Positions 1 to 38,882 of a stretch of 64,000 bases of DNA are shown piece after piece. The stretch's first letter is position 1; each line of letters opens with the position of its first letter. Made by a program: the position numbers and the translations under genes. The stretch is taken from positions 186,001 to 250,000 of the forward strand of contig NZ_BBWQ01000018.1 of NCBI RefSeq assembly GCF_001463885.1, in the 5' to 3' direction. This DNA comes from Aureimonas altamirensis. Lineage in GTDB: Bacteria > Pseudomonadota > Alphaproteobacteria > Rhizobiales > Rhizobiaceae. The notes under the pieces were generated by a model. It was not told the DNA's origin. It made no database searches and was given only the letters and a program-made list of their open reading frames with translations.

Positions 1-394
1 GGGCAGCGCCCGTCACATTGCTACGGCCGGCAGAGACGGTCAGTGGCAGGCGATGCCGATGGGCGATCATCGTGACGGCCTGCACCTGCTCCACCGTCGA
101 GACGCGCACGAAGACGCCGTCAACTGCCGCTGGGGTGCCGTCCGTTTCCGCGATCATGGTGCCGGCCCACCAGTCACGCGTGTTGACGACGAGATCGTCG
201 CGCGTGGTCAGGACCTCCTCCGACGCGCTCCGCAGCTCTGCAATAACGGCCTCAGAAACCTCCACGGCATTGCGGGCAAGCCCAGCGGAAGCGCCGATCG
301 TCTCGATTGACTTGGCATAATGCGGCTGCGTCGGCGCGCCGACGACGTAGTTGCCACGATTGTATCCGCGGCGGACCGCTTCCTTGCTCATCAT
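1..394 (-). CDS. FAD-binding oxidase, N-terminal part (cut by window edge)
   Basis: The reverse strand reads from ATG at 394 to the window edge without a stop, giving about 131 residues. The protein resembles the N-terminus of PCMH-type FAD-binding oxidases (alkylglycerone-phosphate synthase / FAD-linked dehydrogenase group): a segment DGVFVRVSTVEQVQAV is followed by AHRHRLPLTVSAGRSNVTGA, the usual start of the FAD-binding fold. A GGGAG lies about 9 nt before the first of two adjacent ATGs. It begins 1 nt after the stop of the GlpD-like gene, so it is the last visible gene of the polyol operon, where it would oxidise a downstream hydroxy intermediate (inference). The catalytic domain is outside the window, so the substrate cannot be judged. 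Confidence 0.7.
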   Translation of the reverse strand, partial: MMSKEAVRRGYNRGNYVVGAPTQPHYAKSIETIGASAGLARNAVEVSEAVIAELRSASEEVLTTRDDLVVNTRDWWAGTMIAETDGTPAAVDGVFVRVSTVEQVQAVTMIAHRHRLPLTVSAGRSNVTGAA

Positions 395-395
395 A

Positions 396-2072
396 TCAAT
401 AGTCTCCCGTAAGTATGAATTTTTCTTTGGCGATCGCTGCTTCATATCCGGCGATCTGACTGGCGATCTCGTTGGACGAAAGCTTCAGCTCCCGCCCGAT
501 GATCTCGCCGACGCGGGCAGCCGCCCGGCCCGAGGCGTCGCGCGCCATCAGGCGGGCCCGCATGCGCCGCGACAGGACATCGTCCACGGTTGCCGCCATC
601 TCGTGCCGGACGGCGTACAGGACTTCGGCCTGCGTGAACGGAAGTCCTTCGACGATGGGCGCGGCGAGGTCCGCGTCATCGGCCAGAAGGTCGCTGACAA
701 AGCGGGCTTCGGTGCCGTAGCGCTCTCCCAGATGGGCCGCCATGCCGCCGGAGGCGACGATTGCCTGGGCGTCGTAGCCGGCCGCGCCAAGCAGCCAGGC
801 TTTCTTGGTGGTGCATCTGCGCCTCTCGCCCAGCACGCTGCCCACGGCATCCACTGTCTGAGCGGCCATGTGGCGGGCGGTCGTCAATTTGCCGCCGACG
901 ATGGAAACGACACCGTCCTTGCCGACATGCACGGTATGATCGCGTTTGACATCCATCGTGCTGCCGCCCGGCGAAGACGAAACGAGCGGTCGGCAGCCGG
1001 CGATGCTGCCGACGACGTCGCTGACCTCAATGTCCGTCTTCAACGCCGAACGTGCGCCTTCCAGAAGGAAGTCCAGTTCGGTACGCGTGCAATGAACGTC
1101 ATCGAGGCTGCCCTTATAGTCCTCGTCCGTGGTGCCGAGATAGGAAACGTTGCCCCACCGGGTGATGGTGGCCCGGCGGCTGCGCCCCGGAACGGGGATC
1201 GTCACGGTGCAGTCGTTGCGGACCTTCAGCCAGGGAATGGCGACATGCACGCCCTTGGCGGGCCGGACATGGAGCGGCCGCTCGTCTTCGCCGGCTGCCA
1301 TCCAGTCGCGCATCCAGACGCCCGTCGCCATGATGACGGCCTTCGCCCGCACGCGGATCTCGCGGCCGGATTCGGTTTCCACGACCGCGCCGTCCGCCTT
1401 TCCGCCATTGCGCGTCAGCTCCATGACGCGCGCATGGTTGAGGATGGCCGCACCATGATGGGCGGCAGACCGTGCCAGCGCCAGCGTCAGCCGCGCATCA
1501 TCGACCCGCGCATCGAAGTACATGAAGCCGCCGCGCAACTGGTCGTCGCGGAAGGTCGGGCAGTGCGACAGCACCTCGGCAGCACTTAGCCGCTGATGAA
1601 GGATGCCCTCGCGCCACCCGCCGGCCAGGTCGTAACTCCAGAGCAGGCCCTCGAACGCCTTGGCCATCCGCGCATCGAAGATGCCGTCACGCTCCAGGAT
1701 CGGGAACAGGAATGGCAACCGCTGCACCAGATGCCCGGCATTGCGGCGCAGCCTCTGCCGCTCCAGCAGGGAATGGCGGACCAACCCCAGATTGCCCTGC
1801 TCGATGTAGCGCAAACCGCCATGAACCATCTTGGACGATTTGGACGAGGTGCCGGACGCGAAGTCGTCTTTCTCGATCAGCGCCACGCGATAGCCGCGCA
1901 GCGCCGCGTCGAAGGCGCAATAGCATCCCGTTACGCCGCCCCCGACGATGAGAATGTCGAACGTCTCGTCGGCAAGCCTGTCTTCCTGCTCGGCGCGGAC
2001 AAGCCGCAGGGGCTCGGTGCGGGCAAGGTTTTCGCGGTCGCGGCTGGCGCGTCGGCCGGGAAGTCGAAACAT
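396..2072 (-). CDS. GlpD-like FAD glycerol-3-phosphate dehydrogenase
   Basis: 558-residue flavoprotein of the GlpD/DAO family, which oxidises glycerol 3-phosphate or a related polyol phosphate and passes electrons to quinone at the inner membrane. The FAD-binding dinucleotide fold is plain near residue 35 (ILIVGGGVTGCYCAFDA), followed by SGTSSKSSKMVHGGLRYIE, the GlpD signature. Length matches the family. Start at 2072 was chosen because upstream in-frame sequence is the shadow of the kinase gene and a GAGG lies 8 nt before this ATG. It sits 19 nt after the kinase, in one operon with a carrier and an FAD oxidase. EryB-type erythritol-phosphate dehydrogenase is a possible alternative; the sequence alone does not decide between the polyol phosphates. 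Confidence 0.85.
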   Translation of the reverse strand: MFRLPGRRASRDRENLARTEPLRLVRAEQEDRLADETFDILIVGGGVTGCYCAFDAALRGYRVALIEKDDFASGTSSKSSKMVHGGLRYIEQGNLGLVRHSLLERQRLRRNAGHLVQRLPFLFPILERDGIFDARMAKAFEGLLWSYDLAGGWREGILHQRLSAAEVLSHCPTFRDDQLRGGFMYFDARVDDARLTLALARSAAHHGAAILNHARVMELTRNGGKADGAVVETESGREIRVRAKAVIMATGVWMRDWMAAGEDERPLHVRPAKGVHVAIPWLKVRNDCTVTIPVPGRSRRATITRWGNVSYLGTTDEDYKGSLDDVHCTRTELDFLLEGARSALKTDIEVSDVVGSIAGCRPLVSSSPGGSTMDVKRDHTVHVGKDGVVSIVGGKLTTARHMAAQTVDAVGSVLGERRRCTTKKAWLLGAAGYDAQAIVASGGMAAHLGERYGTEARFVSDLLADDADLAAPIVEGLPFTQAEVLYAVRHEMAATVDDVLSRRMRARLMARDASGRAAARVGEIIGRELKLSSNEIASQIAGYEAAIAKEKFILTGDY

Positions 2073-7973: not shown

Positions 7974-9449
7974 ATGTCGACGTCCAGCAATTCCGGTGCG
8001 GCTTCCCTCCGGCTCTCAGACCCCGGTCTCCTGAAGCAGCAATGCCTTGTGGACGGCGCCTGGCGCGATGCGGCCGGCGGCGAGACCATCGCGGTGACCA
8101 ACCCGGCCGACGGGTCCACCGTCGCGCATGTTCCCGTTCTGTCGGCCGGTGAAATCGAAGACGCGATCGGAGCAAGCGCCAGGGCGCAGAAGGGCTGGGC
8201 GGCGCTGGCCGCAAAGGAGCGCGCCGCCATCCTGCGCAAATGGTTCGATCTCATGATCGCCAATGCCGACGACCTTGCCGCCATCATGACGGCGGAACAG
8301 GGCAAGCCGCTGGCCGAGGCCAAGGGCGAGATCACCTATGCGGCGTCCTTCGTGGAATGGTTCGCCGAGGAGGCCAAGCGCGTCTACGGCGAGACCATAC
8401 CGGCGCCGGCATCAGACCGGCGGATCACGGTCATACGCCAGCCGGTCGGCGTGACCGCTGCGATCACGCCATGGAATTTCCCGGCTGCGATGATCACCCG
8501 CAAGGCGGCCCCCGCGCTGGCGGCCGGCTGCAGCATGATCGTGCGCCCGGCAGACCTGACGCCGCTGACGGCCTTGGCGCTGGGCGAGCTTGCGGTGCGG
8601 GCGGGCATTCCGGCCGGCGTGCTGCAGATCGTGACCGGCAAGGCCCGAGAGATCGGGGCGGTGCTGACCGCAAGCGAAACCGTGCGCAAGCTGTCATTCA
8701 CGGGGTCTACCGAGGTCGGGCGCCTGCTGATGGAGCAATGTGCGCCGACCATCAAGCGCATGTCGCTGGAACTTGGCGGCAACGCACCCTTCATCGTCTT
8801 CGACGATGCCGATCTGGATGCCGCGGTGGAGGGCGCCATGCTGTCCAAATACCGCAATGCCGGGCAGACCTGCGTCTGCGCCAACCGCATCTACGTGCAG
8901 AAGGGCGTCTACGACGCGTTCGCCGAGAAGCTGGCAGCAAAGGTTGCCACGCTCAAGGTCGGCAACGGCACCGAACCGGGTGTCGCCATCGGCCCACTGA
9001 TCGAGGAAAAGGCGCTCCGCAAGGTGGAGGAGCATATAGAGGACGCCGTCTCCAAGGGCGCTACGCTCCTGTCCGGCGGCAAGCGGCTTGGCGGCCTGTT
9101 CATCGAGCCGGGTATCCTGACCGGCGTTACGCAGGACATGCGCGTATCGCATGAAGAGACGTTCGGCCCGCTGGCGCCATTGTTTCCCTTCGAGACGGAG
9201 GAACAGGTGATCGGCATGGCGAACGACACGATCTTCGGGCTTGCCGCCTATTTCTACACACGGGATTTCTCGCGCTCGGTGCGCGTGGCCGAAGCCCTGG
9301 AATACGGCATCGTGGGGCACAATACCGGCATCATCTCCAACGAGGTCGCGCCGTTCGGCGGTGTCAAACAGTCCGGGCTCGGCCGGGAAGGGTCGCACCA
9401 CGGAATAGAAGAGTATCTCGAGATGAAATATGTCTGCAGCGCCGTCTGA
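7974..9449 (+). CDS. gabD: NAD(P)-dependent succinate-semialdehyde dehydrogenase-like
   Basis: 491-residue aldehyde dehydrogenase very close to GabD. Shared segments include PWNFPAAMITRKAAPALAAG, SFTGSTEVGRLLMEQ, the ELGGNAPFIVFDDADLD block with the catalytic Glu, and the active-site Cys in NAGQTCVCANRIYVQ. The C-terminal SGLGREGSHHGIEEYLEMKY is also GabD-like. It would oxidise succinate semialdehyde or a similar short aldehyde to the acid in the cytoplasm. The gene overlaps the iron alcohol dehydrogenase by 20 nt, suggesting a two-step alcohol-to-aldehyde-to-acid route; this pair recalls BlcA/BlcB of agrobacteria, where 4-hydroxybutyrate is the substrate. No lactonase (BlcC) is present here. 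Confidence 0.88.
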   Translation: MSTSSNSGAASLRLSDPGLLKQQCLVDGAWRDAAGGETIAVTNPADGSTVAHVPVLSAGEIEDAIGASARAQKGWAALAAKERAAILRKWFDLMIANADDLAAIMTAEQGKPLAEAKGEITYAASFVEWFAEEAKRVYGETIPAPASDRRITVIRQPVGVTAAITPWNFPAAMITRKAAPALAAGCSMIVRPADLTPLTALALGELAVRAGIPAGVLQIVTGKAREIGAVLTASETVRKLSFTGSTEVGRLLMEQCAPTIKRMSLELGGNAPFIVFDDADLDAAVEGAMLSKYRNAGQTCVCANRIYVQKGVYDAFAEKLAAKVATLKVGNGTEPGVAIGPLIEEKALRKVEEHIEDAVSKGATLLSGGKRLGGLFIEPGILTGVTQDMRVSHEETFGPLAPLFPFETEEQVIGMANDTIFGLAAYFYTRDFSRSVRVAEALEYGIVGHNTGIISNEVAPFGGVKQSGLGREGSHHGIEEYLEMKYVCSAV

Positions 9450-10626
9450 CACCATCCGGGCGGAGGAGGGCGTCTTGCCCTTCTCCTTCCGCGCCGTGCC
9501 GTCGATGCTGGCCGAATGGGGTGGCGCGCGCCGTCTTGGCGCCATTCTGGCCGACTGGCGGCCGGAGCGGAACCTCCTGCTGGTCACCGATGCCGGCTTG
9601 CACCGCGCCGGTGTGCTGGAGCCGGCCAAACGCTCACTGGATCAATCCGGCTTCCGCGTCACGGTGTTCGATGCCGTCGTCGCCGACCCGCCGGAATCCG
9701 TCCTGATGGCCTGCGTCGACGCGGCGCGGGCGGCGGGTTGCGACCTGGTGGTGGGCCTCGGCGGCGGGTCTTCCATGGATGTCGCCAAGCTGGCCGCCGT
9801 GATGATCGGTTCCTCCCAGCCGCTGGCCGAGATGTACGGCATCGACAAGGTGGTCGGCCACAGAGTGCCATTGGCGCAGGTGCCGACCACGGCGGGCACC
9901 GGGTCGGAGGCCACCAACATCACCATTCTGACCACCGGCGAGACGACCAAGATGGGTGTCGTTTCCGCCCAGCTCTACGCGGATCTGGTGCTTCTGGATG
10001 CGGAGCTGACGGTGGGGCTGCCGCCGCTTCATACGGCCGCCACCGGCATCGACGCCATGGTGCATGCGATCGAGGCCTACACCTCGCGCCATCGGAAAAA
10101 TCCATTATCCGATGCGCTGGCGCGCGAGGCGCTGCGCCTTCTGTCCGGCAACCTTGCCGATGCCTGCCGCGACGGGCAGGCCCGGCGGCCGCGCGAGGCC
10201 ATGCTGTTGGGGGCAAACCTGGCCGGACAGGCCTTCGCCAATGCGCCGGTGGCCGCGGTCCATGCGCTGGCCTATCCGCTGGGCGGGCATTTCCACATTC
10301 CGCACGGCCTGTCCAACGCGTTGATGCTGGGCCCCGTCCTGGCCTTCAACATGCAGGCGGCGGCGCCGCTGTACGCCGAACTGCATGATGTGGTCGGCGG
10401 GGCGTCCCGCGGCGATGTGGCGGAACGGGCGCAAGGGTTCGTCGACGCGATGGAGGCGCTGATGAATGCTTCCGGGGCACCGCGCCGCCTGCGCGATGCC
10501 GGTATCGGCGAGGAAAGCCTGCCCATGCTGGCGGCCGACGCCATGAAGCAGACGCGCCTTCTTGCCAACAATCCCGTCGAGGTGACCGAGGCGGATGCGC
10601 TGCGCCTGTACCGCCAGGCCTTCTAG
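9430..10626 (+). CDS. Iron-containing alcohol dehydrogenase (BlcB-like)
   Basis: 398-residue group III alcohol dehydrogenase. The NAD-binding GGGSSMDVAKLAAV lies near residue 113, followed by PTTAGTGSEATNITILT and the metal-binding region: Asp/His in GIDAMVHAIEAYTSR and the His-rich HALAYPLGGHFHIPHG. These residues hold Fe2+ and are intact. It would oxidise a hydroxy acid or alcohol to the aldehyde used by the GabD-like enzyme, with which it overlaps 20 nt. 4-Hydroxybutyrate is the best-known substrate for this pairing (BlcB); maleylacetate reductase is a more distant alternative. Its TAG stop shares the CTAG tetranucleotide with the stop of the convergent gene. Confidence 0.85.
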   Translation: MSAAPSDTIRAEEGVLPFSFRAVPSMLAEWGGARRLGAILADWRPERNLLLVTDAGLHRAGVLEPAKRSLDQSGFRVTVFDAVVADPPESVLMACVDAARAAGCDLVVGLGGGSSMDVAKLAAVMIGSSQPLAEMYGIDKVVGHRVPLAQVPTTAGTGSEATNITILTTGETTKMGVVSAQLYADLVLLDAELTVGLPPLHTAATGIDAMVHAIEAYTSRHRKNPLSDALAREALRLLSGNLADACRDGQARRPREAMLLGANLAGQAFANAPVAAVHALAYPLGGHFHIPHGLSNALMLGPVLAFNMQAAAPLYAELHDVVGGASRGDVAERAQGFVDAMEALMNASGAPRRLRDAGIGEESLPMLAADAMKQTRLLANNPVEVTEADALRLYRQAF

Positions 10627-31485: not shown

Positions 31486-32580
31486 TCAATCCCAGCTCAG
31501 CGCGCCGCCATTCTGGTATTCGATGACGCGGGTCTCGAAGAAGTTCTTCTCCTTGCCGAGGTCCATGGCCTCGCTCATCCAGGGGAACGGGTTTTCGGTC
31601 GGTGCGAACACCGCCTCCAGGCCCAATTGCGCGCAGCGCCGATTGGCGATGAAGCGCATGTAGCTTTCGCACTGGCCAGAGTTCAGCCCCAGCATGCCGC
31701 GCGGCATCGTATCGCGGCCGTAGGCGGCTTCCAGTTCGGCGCCGCCGCGGATCATCCCGCGCACTTCCTCCTGGAAGGCGTCCGTCCAGAGATGCGGGTT
31801 CTCCACCTTGATCTGGTTGATGACGTCGACACCGAAATTCAGGTGCAGGCTCTCGTCGCGCAGGATGTATTGATACTGCTCGGCGATGCCCACCATCTTG
31901 CCGCGCCGCCCCAGCGACAGGATCTGCGCGAAGCCGGTATAGAACCACATCCCCTCGAAGACGACGTAGAAGGCCACCAGATCGCGCAGGAGCGCGCGGT
32001 CGGTCTCCTCGGTGCCGGTGCGGAAGGCCGGGTCCTCAAGGCTCTGCGTATAGGCCAGCGCCCACGCCGCCTTGTCGGTGATGGAGGGCACCTCGCGGTA
32101 CATGTTGAACAACTCGCCCTCGTTGAGGCCAAGGCTTTCGACAATATACTGGAAGGTATGGGTGTGGATCGCCTCCTCGAAGGATTGCCGCAGCAGATAC
32201 TGCCGGCATTCCGGATTGGTCAGGTGGCGGTAGATGGCCAGGACGATGTTGTTGGCGACCAGCGACTCGGATGCCGCGAAGAATCCGAGGTTGCGCTTGA
32301 TCATCCGCCGCTCGTCGTCGGTCAGCCCGTCGGCCGACTTCCAAAGCGCGATGTCCGCCTGCATGGACACTTCCGTCGGCATCCAGTGGTTGTTGCAGGC
32401 CGCCAGATACTTCTCCCAGGCCCACCGGTATTTCATCGGCAGGAGCTGGTTGACGTCGGCGCGGGCGTTGATCATCCGCTTTTCGTCGACGGCGACGCGG
32501 CCACCCGTGCGGTCGATCTGGCCGAGGCCGGTGGCGGACTCGGCCGTAGCGGAGTCCGTTCGTTCGATAAAGTCGAGCAT
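31486..32580 (-). CDS. nrdB: Ribonucleotide reductase class I beta subunit, Phe-type (class Ic-like)
   Basis: 364-residue ferritin-fold radical subunit. Metal ligands in order: E105 ([12 protein letters not shown]), E136 and H139 ([10 protein letters not shown]), E209 (VVFEGMWF), E243 and H246 (RDESLHLNF). The position that holds the radical Tyr in E. coli (four residues after the ligand His) is Phe143. Phe here and Glu rather than Asp as first ligand are the marks of class Ic enzymes such as that of Chlamydia trachomatis, which use a Mn(IV)/Fe(III) cofactor. The start at 32580 has only a weak ribosome-binding site. It follows nrdA by 34 nt and lies under the same cobalamin riboswitch. Confidence 0.93.
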
Positions 32581-32614: not shown

Positions 32615-35413
32615 TTATTGGCAGGCTTCGCAGTCCGGGTCGTCGATGGCGCAGGCCATCGGCGCAGACACGGCAACCGCATTCAGCTTTCCGTCGCTGC
32701 GTGTCAGCGTCGACTTCTCCACATGGCTGGCCGAGCGCGTGCGCAGGTAATAGGTCGTCTTGAGGCCCGACTTCCAGGCGGAGCGGTAGAGGGAATCCAG
32801 CGCCTTGCCCGACGGGTTTGCCAGATAGAGGTTCAGCGACTGCGCCTGATCCAGCCATTTCTGGCGGCACGCCGCGGCCTCCACGAGCCACCGGCTTTCG
32901 ATTTCGAAGGCCGTGGCATACAGGTGCCGAAGGTCGTCGGGCACGCGATCGATGGGCCCGAGCGAGCCGTCGTAATATTTCAGATCCGAGATCATCACGT
33001 CGTCCCACAGGCCGCGCGCCTTCAGGTCGCGGACGAGATAGGGGTTCACCACCGTGAAATCGCCCGACATGTTCGCCTTGACGAACAGGTTCTGGTAGGT
33101 CGGCTCGATCGACTGCGAGACGCCGCAGATGTTGGAAATCGTGGCCGTGGGCGCGATGGCCATGCAGTTGGAGTTCCGCATGCCCTGGGTGCGAACCTTC
33201 TGGCGCAGGGCATCCCAGTCCAGCCGCGCCGAACTGTCGAAAGTGGCGTCGCGCGCCTCGCCAAGAAGGGGCAGGGAGTCGATCGGCAGGATGCCCTGCG
33301 ACCAGAGCGAGCCCTCATAGCTTTCGTAGCGCCCGCGCTCGGCGGACAGGTCGCTGGAGGCGGCGATGGCGTGCCAGGAGATCAACTCCATGCTTTCGTC
33401 GGCAAACCGCACCGCGGCTTTGCTGGCATAGGGAATGCGCAGCGCCTGCAACGCATCCTGGAAACCCATGAGGCCAAGGCCCACCGGGCGGTGCCGCAGG
33501 TTCGAGCGGCGTGCTTCCGGAATGGTGTAGAAGTTGATGTCGATCACATTGTCCAGCATCCGCATGGCGGTGCGCACGGTGTCGGCGACAAGGTCCGCGT
33601 CGAGCCCGTTATCGGACAGGTGCGCGACGAGGTTGACCGACCCGAGATTGCAGACCGCCACTTCGTCGGCGGACGTGTTCAAAGTGATTTCCGTGCACAG
33701 ATTGGACGAATGGATGGTCCCGGCATGGCGTTGCGGCGAGCGGATGTTGCACGCATCCTTGAAGGTGATCCACGGATGCCCCGTCTCGAACAGCATGGTC
33801 AGCATGCGCCGCCACAATTCGACGGCGCGCACCTTGCGATGGACGCGCAGGCGCCCGCTTGCCGCATCGTTCTCAGCGGCCTCATACGCCGCCTTGAACT
33901 CCGCGCCGTACAGATCGTGGAGGTGGGGCACCTCATCCGGAGAGAAGAGGGTCCATTCCGCATCGGCCTCGACCCGTTCCATGAACAGATCGGGCACCCA
34001 GTTGGCGGTATTCATGTCGTGCGTGCGGCGGCGGTCATCGCCGGTGTTCTTGCGCAGATCGAGGAACTCTTCGATGTCGACATGCCAGGTTTCAAGGTAG
34101 GCGCAAACCGCCCCCTTGCGCTTGCCGCCCTGGTTGACGGCGATGGCGGTGTCGTTGGCCACCTTCAGGAAGGGCACAACGCCCTGGCTTTTTCCGTTGG
34201 TGCCGCGAATATGCGCGCCAAGGCCCCGCACCGGCGTCCAGTCGTTGCCGAGACCGCCGGAATATTTCGCCAGAAGGGCGTTATCGCGCACCGCCTTGAA
34301 GATATGGCTGAGATCGTCGCCGATGGTGGTGAGGAAGCACGACGACAATTGCGGGCGCGGCGTGCCCGCATTGAACAGCGTCGGCGTCGACGCCATGAAG
34401 CGGAAACTGGACAGAAGCTCGTAGAACTCGATGGCGCGGGCTTCCCTGTCGGTTTCGCGCACGGCAAGGCCCATGGCCACCCGCATGAAGAATGCCTGCG
34501 GCAGCTCGAAGCGCGTGCCGTCGCTGTGCAGAAGATACCGGTCGTACAGCGTCTGCAGACCCAGAAACTGAAACTGCCTGTCGCGCTCCGGCTTCAGCGC
34601 CACGCCGAGAACGGCAATGTCGAAGCGCGCTAGCTCGGGGTCGATCAACTGTTCCTCGACACCGCGGGCAAGGTAGCGCGGGAAGTAGTCCGCATAGGCG
34701 GCCTGCATGTCGGCGGCGGTGGCGTTTGTCCGCGCGCCGTTGACGAAGCTGAGCGCCTCGGCCCGAAGCTTGTCCATCAACAGGCGGGCACTGGCGAAGG
34801 CATAGTCCGGATCGGTCTCGACCAGCGCCCGCGCCGCCAGGATCGGGGCGTCGGACAGCTCCTCACGCGAGATGCCGTCATAGAGGTTGCGCCGGGTTTC
34901 GCTGACGATCCGCGCCGCATCCGCACCCGGCAGGCCTTCGACCGCCTCGGCCACGACGGCCGACAGGCGGTCCATGTCGAGCGGCGTGGCGCCGCCATCC
35001 GGCTCGCGCACCATGATCGCCGGTGCGGCAGGCGCAGCCTGCGTTTCCTGTCGGGCCCTGGCGCGCTCTTCCCGGTACAGGACATAGGCTCGGGCCACCT
35101 TGTGATGGCCGCCGCGCATCAGCGCCAGCTCGACCTGGTCCTGCACGTCCTCGATGTGGATGACATGGTCGCGGCCGGCGCGGCGCTGCACCGCCGAGGC
35201 AACCTGGTCCGTCAGCTCGTCGACGGTGTCGTGAACGCGCGACGAACCGGCGGCCTCGCGGCCCTCGACGGCCAGGAACGCCTTGGTGACGGCGACGCTG
35301 ATCTTGCCGGCATCGAAGACGTCGCTCTGGCCGTTGCGCTTGACGACGCGCAGGGGACTGGCCTGAACCTCTGAGCCCGGTCGGACTGTCGGGAATTCTG
35401 CGGAAAGTGACAT
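32615..35413 (-). CDS. nrdA: Ribonucleotide reductase class I alpha subunit with two ATP cones
   Basis: 932-residue catalytic subunit that reduces ribonucleoside diphosphates. Residues 21 to about 116 form one ATP-cone ([19 protein letters not shown]), and 133 to about 217 a second ([20 protein letters not shown]), explaining the extra length over the 761-residue E. coli protein. Catalytic features: SSCFL, the NLCTEI loop with Asn/Cys/Glu, [10 protein letters not shown], and the C-terminal redox Cys pair in [12 protein letters not shown] 7 nt before ATG 35413 sets the start; the longer in-frame reading runs through the riboswitch and is rejected. Confidence 0.95.
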
Positions 35414-35533
35414 CGGCTGTTCCTGTCGAAGAGTATGGACAGGCCAGGCGGACACGTGCTGCATACCGGCGCCGCAAGACGCCGGGCAAGCCACACGATC
35501 CGCCGGGACACCCCGCCCAGGGAAAGGTTCGTC

Positions 35534-35705
35534 GACACGGCAGGTCTCCTGGCTTACGGGTCGTCGCCCGGCACCCGGCCTTCCCGGAGCGAGGCTCCAG
35601 TGGCGCGTTTGGGTGCGGACTACCCGCCTACAGTTGCGGGGGCAGCTTCGGATTGACCACCTGCGTGGAGAACCGAATTCCCTCTTAGCTTCCATATCTT
35701 GTGTC
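35534..35705 (-). promoter_or_regulatory. Cobalamin (B12) riboswitch upstream of nrdAB
   Basis: On the reverse strand, in order: GAGGGAATTCGGTTC (about 35671-35685), CCGAAGCTGCC...GCAACTGTA (35629-35651), GCCACTGG (35597-35604), CGGGAAGG (35579-35586) and the B12 box AAGCCAGGAGACCTGCC (35539-35555). Spacing and order are those of the adenosylcobalamin aptamer. GACAC (35701-35705) can pair with GTGTC (35534-35538) to close P1. Between aptamer and nrdA ATG there are about 120 nt with a hairpin (35466-35485, arms CCGGCG/CGCCGG) but no T-run, so translational control or Rho is more likely than an intrinsic terminator. B12 is expected to switch nrdAB off. Confidence 0.93.
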
Positions 35706-35727
35706 TGTGGAAGACCGTGACCACAAC

Positions 35728-35756
35728 AGATTGTTTTATGCGGCAGTCATTGTCAA
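35728..35756 (-). promoter_or_regulatory. Candidate promoter of the nrdAB leader
   Basis: Reverse-strand TTGACA (35751-35756), 17-bp spacer, CAATCT (35728-35733). Transcription would begin about 15 nt before the riboswitch P1 stem, a natural position. The -10 is weak. The rest of the 453-nt gap 35414-35866 holds the riboswitch, its leader and, toward the sensor kinase gene, a GGTGG-GTTTT-CCACC repeat of unknown role. Confidence 0.45.
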
Positions 35757-35866
35757 TCCACCTCGGTGGGTTTTCCACCGTGCCGACGCCGCCGGGCAAA
35801 TTCCTGATTGTGGTTCACCCCGTGCTGCGGCATTGAGTGCATCGTTGCAACAATGACTTGGTTCCG

Positions 35867-37360
35867 ATGGCGATCACCCAGAAGCAGTTCTATGCCCGCA
35901 CATTCGCCTTCCTGGCTGCCGCGCTGCTTCTGCTACTGACGATCGTCGGCGGTTCGCTCTACCTGACGCGGCTGACCCAGCAGAATTTCGACAAGGTGGT
36001 CATGACGCGCTCGGTGCGCAGCGCGGCGGCCGACCTTCTGTCCCGCATCATCGATGCCGAAACGGGGCAGCGCGGCTATCTCCTGACGCGGGACCAGCGC
36101 TACCTGGAGCCCTATCGCGAGCAGGTCGGGGCCATCGCGCCGAGGCTCGAGCAGTTGCAGGTGGCAATGGACCAGATGATGGGCGGTCGCGTGGACCTGT
36201 CGGAGCTGAGCCAGCGTGTCACGGCCAAGACGGCGGAACTCGATTCGACGGTTTCGCTTGCGCTCGACGGCCAGTACGACGCGGCCGTCGCGGAGGTGGC
36301 CGGCGGCGCGGGCCTTGCGCTCATGGACGAGATTCGCAGCCAGCTCGGCACGATTCTCGATCAGACGGAAGCGCAGTTGCGGGCCGGCATCGAGCGGCAG
36401 GAAAGCATCGGGTCCACCTTGCGCCACGTGACGGTGGTCGGCGCACTCGCCATCGTCCTGATGGCGGCCGCCGCCGCCTGGACCATCCTGCGCTATACGC
36501 GGGAAGTCGCCGAAGCCCGCGCCGAAATCGAGTCCGCCAATGCAGCTCTGGAAGCCCGGGTCGAGGAGCGCACGACCGACCTTATCAAGGCGAACGAGGA
36601 GATCCAGCGCTTCGCCTACATCGTGACGCACGATCTGCGCGCACCGCTTGTGAACATCATGGGTTTCACGAGCGAGCTCGAGGCGACGTTTGCGCCGGTG
36701 CGCGACTACATGGCCAGCCTGCCACCCGGCGAGGATACGCTGCGCCGCCAGGCCGAAGAGGCGATCGAACAGGAAGTACCGGAGGCCATATCCTTCATCC
36801 GCTCGTCGACCCGCAAGATGGACGGCCTCATCAACGCCATCCTGAAGATATCGCGGGAAGGGCGGCGCAGCCTGAAGCCCGAAAGGGTGGATCTGCGTGC
36901 CCTGGTGGAAACGGCGACCAATGCCGTGCACCATCAAAGTGCCGAGAATGACGGCGAGATCGAAACCGACGTCAAGGCGAAGTCCATCGTCACCGACCGT
37001 CTTTCGCTTGATCAGATCCTTGGAAACCTGCTTGATAACGCAATCAAGTATCGCGAGCCGTCGCGCCCTCTGCGGATATCCGTCCGTACACGGAACGATT
37101 CCTACGGCCGCGTCGTGATCGAGGTCGAGGACAACGGAAGGGGCATTTCGCCGGCTGACAATGAACGGGTGTTCGAGCTCTTCCGACGGTCGGGAAAACA
37201 GGATACTGCGGGTGAGGGGATCGGGCTGGCGCATGTGCGGACGCTGGCGCGCAACCTGGGCGGGGACATCGGCCTCAAATCTGAACTCGGCACGGGCTCG
37301 ACCTTCACGCTCGTCCTGCCGGCCAATCTTTCAAACGTGAAGCGGAGCATGGAATCGTGA
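35867..37360 (+). CDS. CHASE3-domain sensor histidine kinase
   Basis: 497-residue membrane sensor kinase. Helix 1 spans about 10-38, the CHASE3-type periplasmic domain about 40-200 (contains DAETGQRGYLLTRDQRYLEP, the family signature), helix 2 about 190-215, a short coiled coil (EIESANAALEARVEERT), HisKA with phospho-His in YIVTHDLRAPLVNIMG, and HATPase with EDNGRGISPADNERVFELF and GIGLAHVRTLA. ATG 35867 is preferred; GTG 35837 is an alternative, neither with a good ribosome-binding site. It overlaps the response regulator gene by 4 nt. The stimulus is unknown. Confidence 0.88.
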   Translation: MAITQKQFYARTFAFLAAALLLLLTIVGGSLYLTRLTQQNFDKVVMTRSVRSAAADLLSRIIDAETGQRGYLLTRDQRYLEPYREQVGAIAPRLEQLQVAMDQMMGGRVDLSELSQRVTAKTAELDSTVSLALDGQYDAAVAEVAGGAGLALMDEIRSQLGTILDQTEAQLRAGIERQESIGSTLRHVTVVGALAIVLMAAAAAWTILRYTREVAEARAEIESANAALEARVEERTTDLIKANEEIQRFAYIVTHDLRAPLVNIMGFTSELEATFAPVRDYMASLPPGEDTLRRQAEEAIEQEVPEAISFIRSSTRKMDGLINAILKISREGRRSLKPERVDLRALVETATNAVHHQSAENDGEIETDVKAKSIVTDRLSLDQILGNLLDNAIKYREPSRPLRISVRTRNDSYGRVVIEVEDNGRGISPADNERVFELFRRSGKQDTAGEGIGLAHVRTLARNLGGDIGLKSELGTGSTFTLVLPANLSNVKRSMES

Positions 37361-37803
37361 GCAGGACCGCAAAGCCTGTCCAGATCGTCATGATCGAGGA
37401 CGACGAGGGCCACGCCCGGCTGATCGAGAAGAACATCCGGCGTGCCGGCGTCAACAACGAGATCCTGCCGTTCGGCAATGGCACGGATGCGCTGTCGTTT
37501 CTGTTCGGCGCAGACGGCTCGGGCGAGGACAGCGCCGGACGGCACCTTTTGATCCTTCTGGACCTGAACCTGCCGGACATGGGCGGGGTGGACATCCTCG
37601 AGAAGGTGAAGGCCAACCCGCATACCAAGCTTTCGCCCGTCATCGTGCTGACGACGACCGACGACAGCCGGGAGATCCAGCGCTGCTACGATCTCGGCGC
37701 CAATGTCTACATTACCAAGCCGGTGGATTACGAAGGCTTCGCCAACGCCATCCGGCAGCTCGGCCTGTTCTTCTCGGTGATGCAGGTGCCGGAAACGGAA
37801 TGA
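37357..37803 (+). CDS. Single-domain response regulator (Rcp1-like)
   Basis: 148-residue stand-alone receiver. IEDDEGHARLIEKNIRRAG supplies the acidic pocket, LLDLNLPDMGG the phospho-acceptor Asp, TTDD the switch Thr and YITKPVDYEGF the Lys. No output domain follows, so it signals through protein contacts, probably between the CHASE3 kinase before it and the receiver-kinase after it. GTG start in a GTGA overlap with the kinase stop; the next gene begins inside its own stop. Confidence 0.9.
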   Translation: MSRTAKPVQIVMIEDDEGHARLIEKNIRRAGVNNEILPFGNGTDALSFLFGADGSGEDSAGRHLLILLDLNLPDMGGVDILEKVKANPHTKLSPVIVLTTTDDSREIQRCYDLGANVYITKPVDYEGFANAIRQLGLFFSVMQVPETE

Positions 37804-38882
37804 CGATGGCTGCGGGCGGGAGCCAGCCGGGCGAGGCCGGTGTCACAGTTCTGTACATCGACGACGATGTCGTGGCCGGCCGTCTTGCCCAGCGGATGCT
37901 GAGCCGCCATGGCATATCCGTGGTGCATGCTGCCGACGCCGCCACCGGCCTGCAACTGCTGAACGATCGCGACTTTTCCGCCGTCATCCTGGATCACGAC
38001 CTCGGCTCGGGGTCCGGGCTGGATATTCTGAGCGACATGAGCGCCATGGAGAACGCGCCTCCGGCGGTTTACGTGACGGCATCGACGGAGCTGTCCATCG
38101 CCGTCGACGCGCTGAAGGCGGGCGCGGTGGATTACGTCGTCAAGACGGTCGGGTCGGAGTTCGAGCTGCTCTTGGCCAACGCCATTCGAGCCTCGGTGGA
38201 AAAGGCGACGTTGAGGCGCGCCAAGGAGAGGGCCGAGCAGGAAGTGCGCGAGGCCCGCGACCGCGCCGTGGCCATGCTGGCCGAGGTGAACCACCGGGTC
38301 GCCAACAGCCTTGCGCTTGTCGGATCTCTCGTTCGCATGCAGACCAACGGCACCGAGGACCCGGCCATACGCGAGGCACTGACCGAGGTGCAGGCGCGCA
38401 TCACCGCGATCGCCAATCTGCACCGCAGCCTCTACACGTCCGAAGATGTCCGCAGCGTGGATTTGAAGACCTATCTCGGCCGGCTGGTGGGCGAGCTTAC
38501 CCTGTCCACGGCCGACGAGCAGCACAAGATGCCGATCCGCTTCGAGGCCGATCCGGTGACCGTCTCACCGGACAAGGCCGTGTCGATCGGCGTCATCGCG
38601 ACTGAACTGATGACGAACGCGATCAAATACGCTTATCCTGACAAGAAGGGCGATATCCGCGTAAGACTGACGAAGACGGCCGAGGGGATGGCCGAACTGT
38701 CGGTCGAGGATGACGGGATCGGCTGGCGTGGCGAAGGGCAGATCCAGGGCACGGGCCTCGGCGCACGGATCATCGTGGCGCTGACGCGCAGCCTGGATAG
38801 CAAGCTCGTCTACGCCGAAACCGGCGTCGGCACGCGCGCGGTCGTCGCCTTCGATACGATGCCGGGCCAACCGAAAGGCTGA
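37800..38882 (+). CDS. Hybrid receiver-histidine kinase (HisKA_2/HWE type)
   Basis: 360-residue soluble protein with an N-terminal receiver (about 15-130, Asp in VILDHDLGSGSG) joined by a charged helix to a HisKA_2 dimerisation domain (phospho-His in LAEVNHRVANSLALVGSLVR, about residue 165) and an HATPase domain (ATELMTNAIKYAYPDKKG, EDDGIGW, GLGARI). This kinase type is common in alphaproteobacterial stress signalling. Having the receiver in front suggests its activity is gated by phosphorylation from the upstream pair. ATGA overlap with the response regulator gene makes a three-gene relay. Confidence 0.88.
   Translation: MTMAAGGSQPGEAGVTVLYIDDDVVAGRLAQRMLSRHGISVVHAADAATGLQLLNDRDFSAVILDHDLGSGSGLDILSDMSAMENAPPAVYVTASTELSIAVDALKAGAVDYVVKTVGSEFELLLANAIRASVEKATLRRAKERAEQEVREARDRAVAMLAEVNHRVANSLALVGSLVRMQTNGTEDPAIREALTEVQARITAIANLHRSLYTSEDVRSVDLKTYLGRLVGELTLSTADEQHKMPIRFEADPVTVSPDKAVSIGVIATELMTNAIKYAYPDKKGDIRVRLTKTAEGMAELSVEDDGIGWRGEGQIQGTGLGARIIVALTRSLDSKLVYAETGVGTRAVVAFDTMPGQPKG

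Follow-up and report, generated by a model that had tools for sequence, protein, structure and literature searches.

A cobalamin riboswitch leads a class Ic-like ribonucleotide reductase operon in an Aureimonas genome that also encodes NrdJ

The nrdAB operon and its cobalamin aptamer

The stretch analysed (64,000 nucleotides of Aureimonas altamirensis, hereafter the window) carries on its minus strand nrdA (32615..35413), which encodes a 932-aa class I ribonucleotide reductase large subunit, and nrdB (31486..32580), which encodes the small subunit. NrdA matched NF005544 with 1622.7 bits (cut-off 965) and possesses both reductase domains (PF02867, PF00317) as well as an ATP-cone (PF03477), and NrdB matched NF005550 with 662.9 bits (cut-off 309). 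Both starts were chosen within longer open frames: ATG 35413 is the likely start of nrdA, and the longest frame of nrdB opens at 32682 rather than at 32580. Class Ia reductases are defined by a tyrosyl radical in the small subunit, while class Ic is the name given to enzymes with a Mn/Fe cofactor in which this tyrosine is replaced. The NrdB of the window reads EEAIHTHTF, with Phe at the radical-Tyr position, as opposed to the Tyr-type subunits of relatives, which read EAVHARSY at this site (L038). Its closest solved chains were 6y2n (661.5 bits) and 1syy (430.7 bits; presumably a Chlamydia protein), and the alignments with both chains place a Phe four residues after the ligand His, as in the window. 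Because Phe replaces the radical Tyr, the enzyme is, judged by its sequence, class Ic-like and lacks the tyrosyl-radical small subunit of class Ia. The original prediction had drawn a parallel with the class Ia operon of Streptomyces coelicolor, which holds for a class I reductase in general and fails at the level of the subclass.

A cmscan of the whole 64-kb window returned one match to the cobalamin riboswitch family RF00174, at 35734..35522 on the minus strand, which covered the full model (1-189 of 189) with 137.3 bits (gathering score 31.5 bits) and an E value of 1.8e-34 for the whole window, ruling out a chance match. This is the top scorer among the five RF00174 matches in the 4.19-Mb genome. 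The covariance model thereby confirmed the predicted B12 aptamer on the coding strand before nrdA, of which the span first noted (35534-35705) is the inner part. The end of the aptamer lies 108 nt before ATG 35413, with nrdA and then nrdB downstream. In the Rfam alignment and in the sequence, the aptamer blocks appear in the expected order, namely GGGAA, CUGCCCCCGCAACUGUA with the L5 loop (CCCCCG, 35637..35642, minus strand), CCACUGG...CCGGGAAGGC, and the B12 box GCCAGGAGACCUGCC, the box (GCCAGGAGACCTGCC, 35539..35553, minus strand) forming the 3' end of the aptamer core.

Upstream of the aptamer lies TTGACA (35751..35756, minus strand), a possible -35 element whose TTGAC recurs at this place in aligned leaders; read as a -35 box, it would possibly have the nrdAB transcript begin near the first pair of P1. 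A strict sigma-70 scan gave no promoter in 35380-35900. To see whether NrdR might be the main regulator, the window was scanned for NrdR boxes, which gave two matches with three mismatches each, against 3.0 expected by chance; both fall inside the leader (35689-35704 and 35721-35736) and as a set amount to no more than chance. Divergent from nrdA and separate from the nrdAB system is a CHASE3 histidine kinase gene (35837..37360, plus strand), followed by two genes that read as response-regulator-like in translation (37357-37803 and 37800-38882, plus strand), the second with a histidine-kinase-like end.

nrdJ and cobalamin riboswitches in the genome and its relatives

The genome (32 contigs, 99.98% complete) was then found to encode the class II enzyme whose presence had been surmised from the window: nrdJ occupies C9:116169-120032 as an intact frame of 1,288 aa, matches NF005736 ('vitamin B12-dependent ribonucleotide reductase') with 2,267.7 bits (cut-off 1,737) and is the genome's one class II reductase. 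No RF00174 match of the genome falls in the 16-kb region around nrdJ. Of the four matches other than that of nrdA, one precedes a 336-aa protein without an NCBIfam hit, which we take to resemble DUF1852, and a short MetE-type methionine synthase (L009:8176-9186 and 9162-10241, plus strand; NF006589, 691.8 bits, for the synthase). The other three precede a BtuB-like TonB receptor (best family TIGR01779, 301.5 bits, cut-off 599.7 not reached), an ABC importer, the ATPase of which has sub-cut-off matches to families of siderophore and corrinoid transport, and a cluster with CobN (TIGR02257, 1,650 bits) and proteins that read as CbtA-like, CobU-like and CobW-like. Given cobN and cobW behind a riboswitch and the BtuB-like receptor, the bacterium probably makes or imports cobalamin. 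NrdAB and the MetE-like enzyme are thus two B12-independent isozymes encoded behind B12 riboswitches in an NrdJ-bearing genome.

Across a family sample of 41 genomes, the window's included, a class II-type match was present in 40 (that of G004 is divergent, ~50% identical to the window's NrdJ) and class I in nine. Six of these nine have RF00174 in the class I leader, and the riboswitch precedes two types of enzyme: class Ic (G000, G007, G034, G038) and a Tyr-type of 722 or 762 aa (G025, G028). The remaining class I genomes are G005 (1.1 Mb, no NrdJ), G004 (2.0 Mb) and G030, which has NrdJ. We set G030 aside as a counterexample because its class I contig looks foreign (GC of 66-72% in three segments; eight best matches of its NrdA among the loci compared all gamma- or betaproteobacterial by title and at most ~64% identical), and it is still counted among the nine. 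This contig (L036, G030:C77) also carries a repeated RLKPDP-coding sequence and is a probable contaminant.

Within the genus (21 genomes, nine with class I), the nrdA-leader riboswitch was present in all eight class I genomes with NrdJ versus none of the one without. This nrdJ-less congener, G097, is a single 3.49-Mb contig, 99% complete, with no RF00174 match before nrdA, and a protein search for NrdJ recovered its class I gene only.

The order sample comprised 219 genomes at least 95% complete, in which a PF02867 match of at least 520 bits was scored as class I, giving 40 loci in 39 genomes; lower-scoring matches from this and the named sample described below were class II in six of six examined (TIGR02504 above cut-off). 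Among the matches listed, at least 33 class I loci have RF00174 in the leader, at a distance of 1.16-1.51 kb from the domain start, and G310, one of the seven loci with no riboswitch listed, proved to carry one (98.4 bits). In genomes that carry another PF02867 gene besides class I, 34 of 36 loci thus have the riboswitch; match counts make that gene a presumptive nrdJ, and protein searches verified it in G184, G238, G310 and G323. None of the four loci whose genomes have no reductase besides class I (G114, G152, G244 and G293, NrdJ absence verified by protein search in each) has it. The contrast has a Fisher p of 1.6e-4, uncorrected for kinship, G114 and G293 sharing a genus. The two exceptions are G238, with an intact NrdJ and a decayed leader, and G184, where the contig ends near the expected leader. 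The samples overlap, as G000 and G028 recur and G235/G266 are, by coordinates and scores, apparently the same genomes as G044/G052. In some relatives, the nrdA riboswitch and another cobalamin riboswitch stand back to back in divergent orientation, separated by slightly more than 0.1 kb (G164:C1:3212123-3212658, G270:C1:6370184-6370748, G281:C1:4769828-4770388 and G326:C73:8215-8776).

The named sample was taken from an NrdA alignment scan (best 80 of 586 confirmed loci), with a riboswitch and nrdJ search of the first 50. Among loci of Rhizobiales type by record title (L041-L058), 17 of 18 have the riboswitch before nrdA, the exception being L051. Actinobacterial or acidobacterial loci have it in 7 of 9 cases (L059, L060, L061, L065, L068, L072, L089); L062 and L067 show none among the matches listed, which leave out weak ones, and may yet carry one. 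L070 is split over contigs, so that its long match comes without upstream sequence, and a second NrdA fragment there has a riboswitch before it. No gamma- or betaproteobacterial class Ic locus (0 of 22) showed a riboswitch before nrdA among the matches listed, which are partial for L075, L077, L079 and L087, while the leader of L081 lies beyond the contig end. When L063-L120 were scanned with a profile built from intact leaders, E values below 1e-5 appeared only in L065, L068, L072 and L089, none of them gamma- or betaproteobacterial. A second reductase is present in 12 of the 22 gamma- and betaproteobacterial genomes and was class II in all three examined. The B12 riboswitch on nrdAB is therefore a habit of certain lineages rather than universal, and nrdJ does not force this wiring, since gamma- and betaproteobacterial loci with a second reductase show none among the matches listed.

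Decayed leaders and a possible order of gene loss

Two genomes with no reductase found besides class I, G097 and L051, still hold traces of the leader. An alignment of six of the nine class I leaders of the genus, G097 included, shows that the TTGAC element, the P13 stretch GGGGCGAGGTGTCCCGG and the sequence leading up to the start codon are preserved in G097; L5, the GCAACUGUA block and the B12 box have ceased to agree with the other leaders. RF00174 was undetected by cmscan in G097 and L051 even at E ≤ 10. Against the intact-leader profile, G097 matched with an E value of 3.4e-15 over a span that runs from the B12-box end past P13 to the opening codons of nrdA, and L051, an nrdJ-less Bradyrhizobiaceae MAG, matched with 2.7e-9 over the promoter and the 5' half of the aptamer. 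The L051 leader is hence, by its sequence, a direct aptamer remnant, whereas the term remnant for G097 rests on platform and position because the aptamer core gave no significant match (a 5' piece reached E 0.47). A wider profile gave scores of 40.1 and 31.2 bits for the pair, compared with at most 5.5 bits in 200 mononucleotide shuffles.

A different state was seen in G238, where NrdJ is intact and the leader is decayed, with no Rfam match at E 5 and a wide-profile aptamer match at E 3.9e-7. Its leader matched that of G323 with an E value of 5.4e-15, coding sequence included (coding sequence alone gave ~1e-10 in G114 and G293). Among the genus-mates of G238, the riboswitch is intact in G323, and G114 and G293 lack both riboswitch and nrdJ. 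The decayed riboswitch of G238 (L131, ~4042-3661, minus strand) precedes a class I operon that opens with an nrdH-like gene.

These leaders prompt a tentative reading, to which we give slightly less than even odds, that the riboswitch is an evolutionary lock, which would let nrdJ go no earlier than the riboswitch itself decays. Under a lock, nrdJ would stay essential because the cobalamin-bound riboswitch shuts the only other reductase; G238 would be an intermediate beside G114 and G293, and the remnants in G097 and L051 would be repeated traces of the same course. Counting against a lock are three loci at which nrdJ was undetected and the aptamer is largely or wholly intact. In L058, RF00174 still scores 102.7 bits and the aptamer is largely intact, with a damaged kissing loop (L5 UGCCCG and L13 UGGAG, two of five pairs lost) and GCAACUG changed to GCACCUG. 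L050 and L057 have intact leaders, and since their assemblies are small (3.8 and 1.9 Mb), the absence of NrdJ there perhaps reflects incompleteness. If the lock is real, ligand-gated isozyme control dictates the order of gene loss. The loss series, in which nrdJ is gone and the leader decayed, is what stands out in this system, as it supplies natural knock-outs; it suggests that a riboswitch may set limits on the order in which genes are lost, and it opens the hypothesis that the switch represses a backup isozyme to evolutionary as well as bench tests.

Predicted control of nrdAB and its known counterparts

We propose, at a probability of about 90%, that a cis-acting cobalamin riboswitch lowers expression of the class Ic nrdAB operon in response to (adenosyl)cobalamin and leaves dNTP synthesis to NrdJ, with NrdAB as a backup. 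When cobalamin is present, the aptamer is predicted to bind it and L5 to pair with L13; nrdAB would then be turned down and NrdJ would supply dNTPs, and when cobalamin is scarce, nrdAB would be on as a backup. The sequences show the parts and where they lie, how well they are conserved, their occurrence together with nrdJ and the decay of leaders; the ligand, the direction of repression and the output are inferred for this riboswitch. Co-occurrence with nrdJ and the leader remnants support a switch that would be off when cobalamin lets NrdJ take over, and the broken sensors in some relatives after NrdJ loss fit the switching off of a backup. A further point in favour of a backup is the second B12-independent isozyme (the short MetE-type synthase) behind another riboswitch of the same genome. 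Against it stand the 0 of 22 gamma- and betaproteobacterial loci among the matches listed, the decayed leader beside an intact nrdJ in G238, and the leaders of L050, L057 and L058, where no nrdJ was found.

Across 21 aligned nrdA leaders, the stretch 3' of the aptamer hardly varies (GGGCGGGGUGUCC) and forms a hairpin with an L5-complementary loop. In the window, this P13 hairpin with L13 (GGG-CGGGGUGU-CCC, 35505..35518, minus strand) lies outside the aptamer and is the putative kissing partner of L5, as CCCCCG at 35642-35637 is complementary to CGGGG at 35515-35511. The CCCCG:CGGGG complementarity was seen in 23 of 24 leaders matched (29 scanned, five without a pattern match), L058 deviating, from which we infer an L5-L13 kissing-loop pairing of the kind described for cobalamin riboswitches in passages of PMC9600662.

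A second hairpin, CCUGUC(10)GACAGG (35422..35443, minus strand), stands right before the start codon, and its 3' arm overlaps the probable ribosome-binding site, where it may act. A hairpin of at least four pairs, with a 3' arm containing GGGG or GACAGG, can form before the start codon in 21 of 21 leaders, with a mean score of 15.6 compared to 12.2 (sd 0.84, largest 14.2) in 100 shuffle sets; taken singly, only 5 of 21 were below 0.05 against shuffles. The arms covary (CCUGUC:GACAGG in the window, CCCCCGU:ACGGGGG in G038, CCCC:GGGG in most, CUCCA:UGGAG in G101, G102 and G109), and arms that change together, with the 3' arm over the ribosome site, suggest occlusion of that site. RNAalifold on the platform supported one compensatory pair of 14 predicted, the terminal hairpin not being included. 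In models with a forced bound-like state, the ribosome site became less open in 4 of 21 leaders and more open in 4 of 21, while the local hairpin went up in 9 of 21 and down in none, a result that we do not count as proof. The start-codon hairpin alone cannot be the off state because G097 keeps one (CUCCA...UGGAG) before nrdA despite an unrecognisable aptamer.

The output is somewhat more probably a block of translation initiation than premature Rho-type termination, a preference that stems from the lack of any intrinsic terminator-like site in 35380-35900. That finding also speaks against transcription attenuation (Rho-dependent, or by pausing linked to P13), as does the ribosome-site hairpin that keeps forming in all leaders as its sequence changes, singly above chance in few of them as this is. 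We nevertheless rate attenuation a real possibility, at roughly one chance in three: the modelled accessibility of the ribosome site shows no consistent change, the terminal hairpin outlives the aptamer in G097, S. coelicolor nrdABS is described as transcriptionally controlled in passages of PMC4991794, and in P. acnes, transcripts stop short of nrdAB (PMC3848588). Turning from output to function, it is improbable that the aptamer is a relic, intact in sequence and no longer controlling nrdAB in this strain. Decayed leaders do exist in G097 and L051 and, with nrdJ present, in G238; the copy in the window, by contrast, is the best-scoring of its genome with L5, L13 and core intact, G091 and G092 share its leader, and nrdJ is intact in the genome. 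Activation of nrdAB by cobalamin is very improbable, given that the cobalamin riboswitches described in passages of PMC9600662 and PMC6538847 repress and that an off-switch fits better with the absence of the aptamer from the four order genomes, G097 and L051, none of which was found to have a reductase besides class I.

The repressing riboswitch that we favour has counterparts in other bacteria. The closest is the B12 riboswitch of S. coelicolor nrdABS (Borovok et al. 2006, as cited in PMC4991794), where a cobalamin riboswitch likewise leads a class I nrdAB operon in a genome with the class II nrdJ; that system differs in being class Ia, with nrdS in the operon, and actinomycete, whereas the reductase of the window is class Ic-like and comes from a relative of Rhizobiales. 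In Cutibacterium (Propionibacterium) acnes, the B12-independent reductases nrdAB and nrdDG lie behind cobalamin riboswitches alongside nrdJ, and much transcription stops before nrdAB; P. acnes is actinobacterial and its evidence is at the transcript level, that for the window coming from sequence (PMC3848588). In Desulfovibrio vulgaris and Desulfuromonas, nrdDG is preceded by B12 elements according to PMC545781; nrdJ is present there and isozyme replacement was proposed, so that a B12-independent reductase again stands behind a B12 element together with nrdJ; NrdDG is, however, a different reductase, and these are deltaproteobacteria. Caulobacter crescentus likewise provides alphaproteobacterial cobalamin riboswitches, one of them on a B12-independent isozyme: those of metE and btuB repress reporters at sub-nanomolar B12, and unlike in the window, B12 riboswitches are given there only for these two genes and so for none of the nrd genes (PMC6538847). 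In S. meliloti, nrdJ was essential, so E. coli nrdAB was supplied (PMC6759758), and the isozyme strategy under cobalamin riboswitches is described in passages of PMC9600662.

B12-riboswitch control of B12-independent reductases is thus already known, and the window is a further member that is ordinary in kind. A comparative-genomics study, probably reference 26 of PMC545781, is said to have first proposed such control and may already list Rhizobiales nrdAB. The window links a class Ic-like reductase with cobalamin control, and does so in a group whose members mostly have NrdJ as their sole reductase.

A second cobalamin riboswitch was observed downstream of nrdAB, before a Rieske oxygenase gene, in three of five relatives examined (riboswitch and gene, respectively: L035:1423-1641 and 53-1315, minus strand; L044:8436-8640 and 8758-10002, plus strand; L052:8141-8354 and 8418-9716, plus strand). 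A literature search on Rieske oxygenases behind cobalamin riboswitches found no paper. The proteins resemble betaine N-demethylase (for L035, NF058607 GbcA at 523.6 bits, below the cut-off of 670, and PDB 3vca/4qup at 561 bits; those of L044 and L052 were judged by their translated start), and the Rieske enzyme may add a third kind to the B12-independent enzymes that B12 controls, replacing corrinoid-dependent demethylation.
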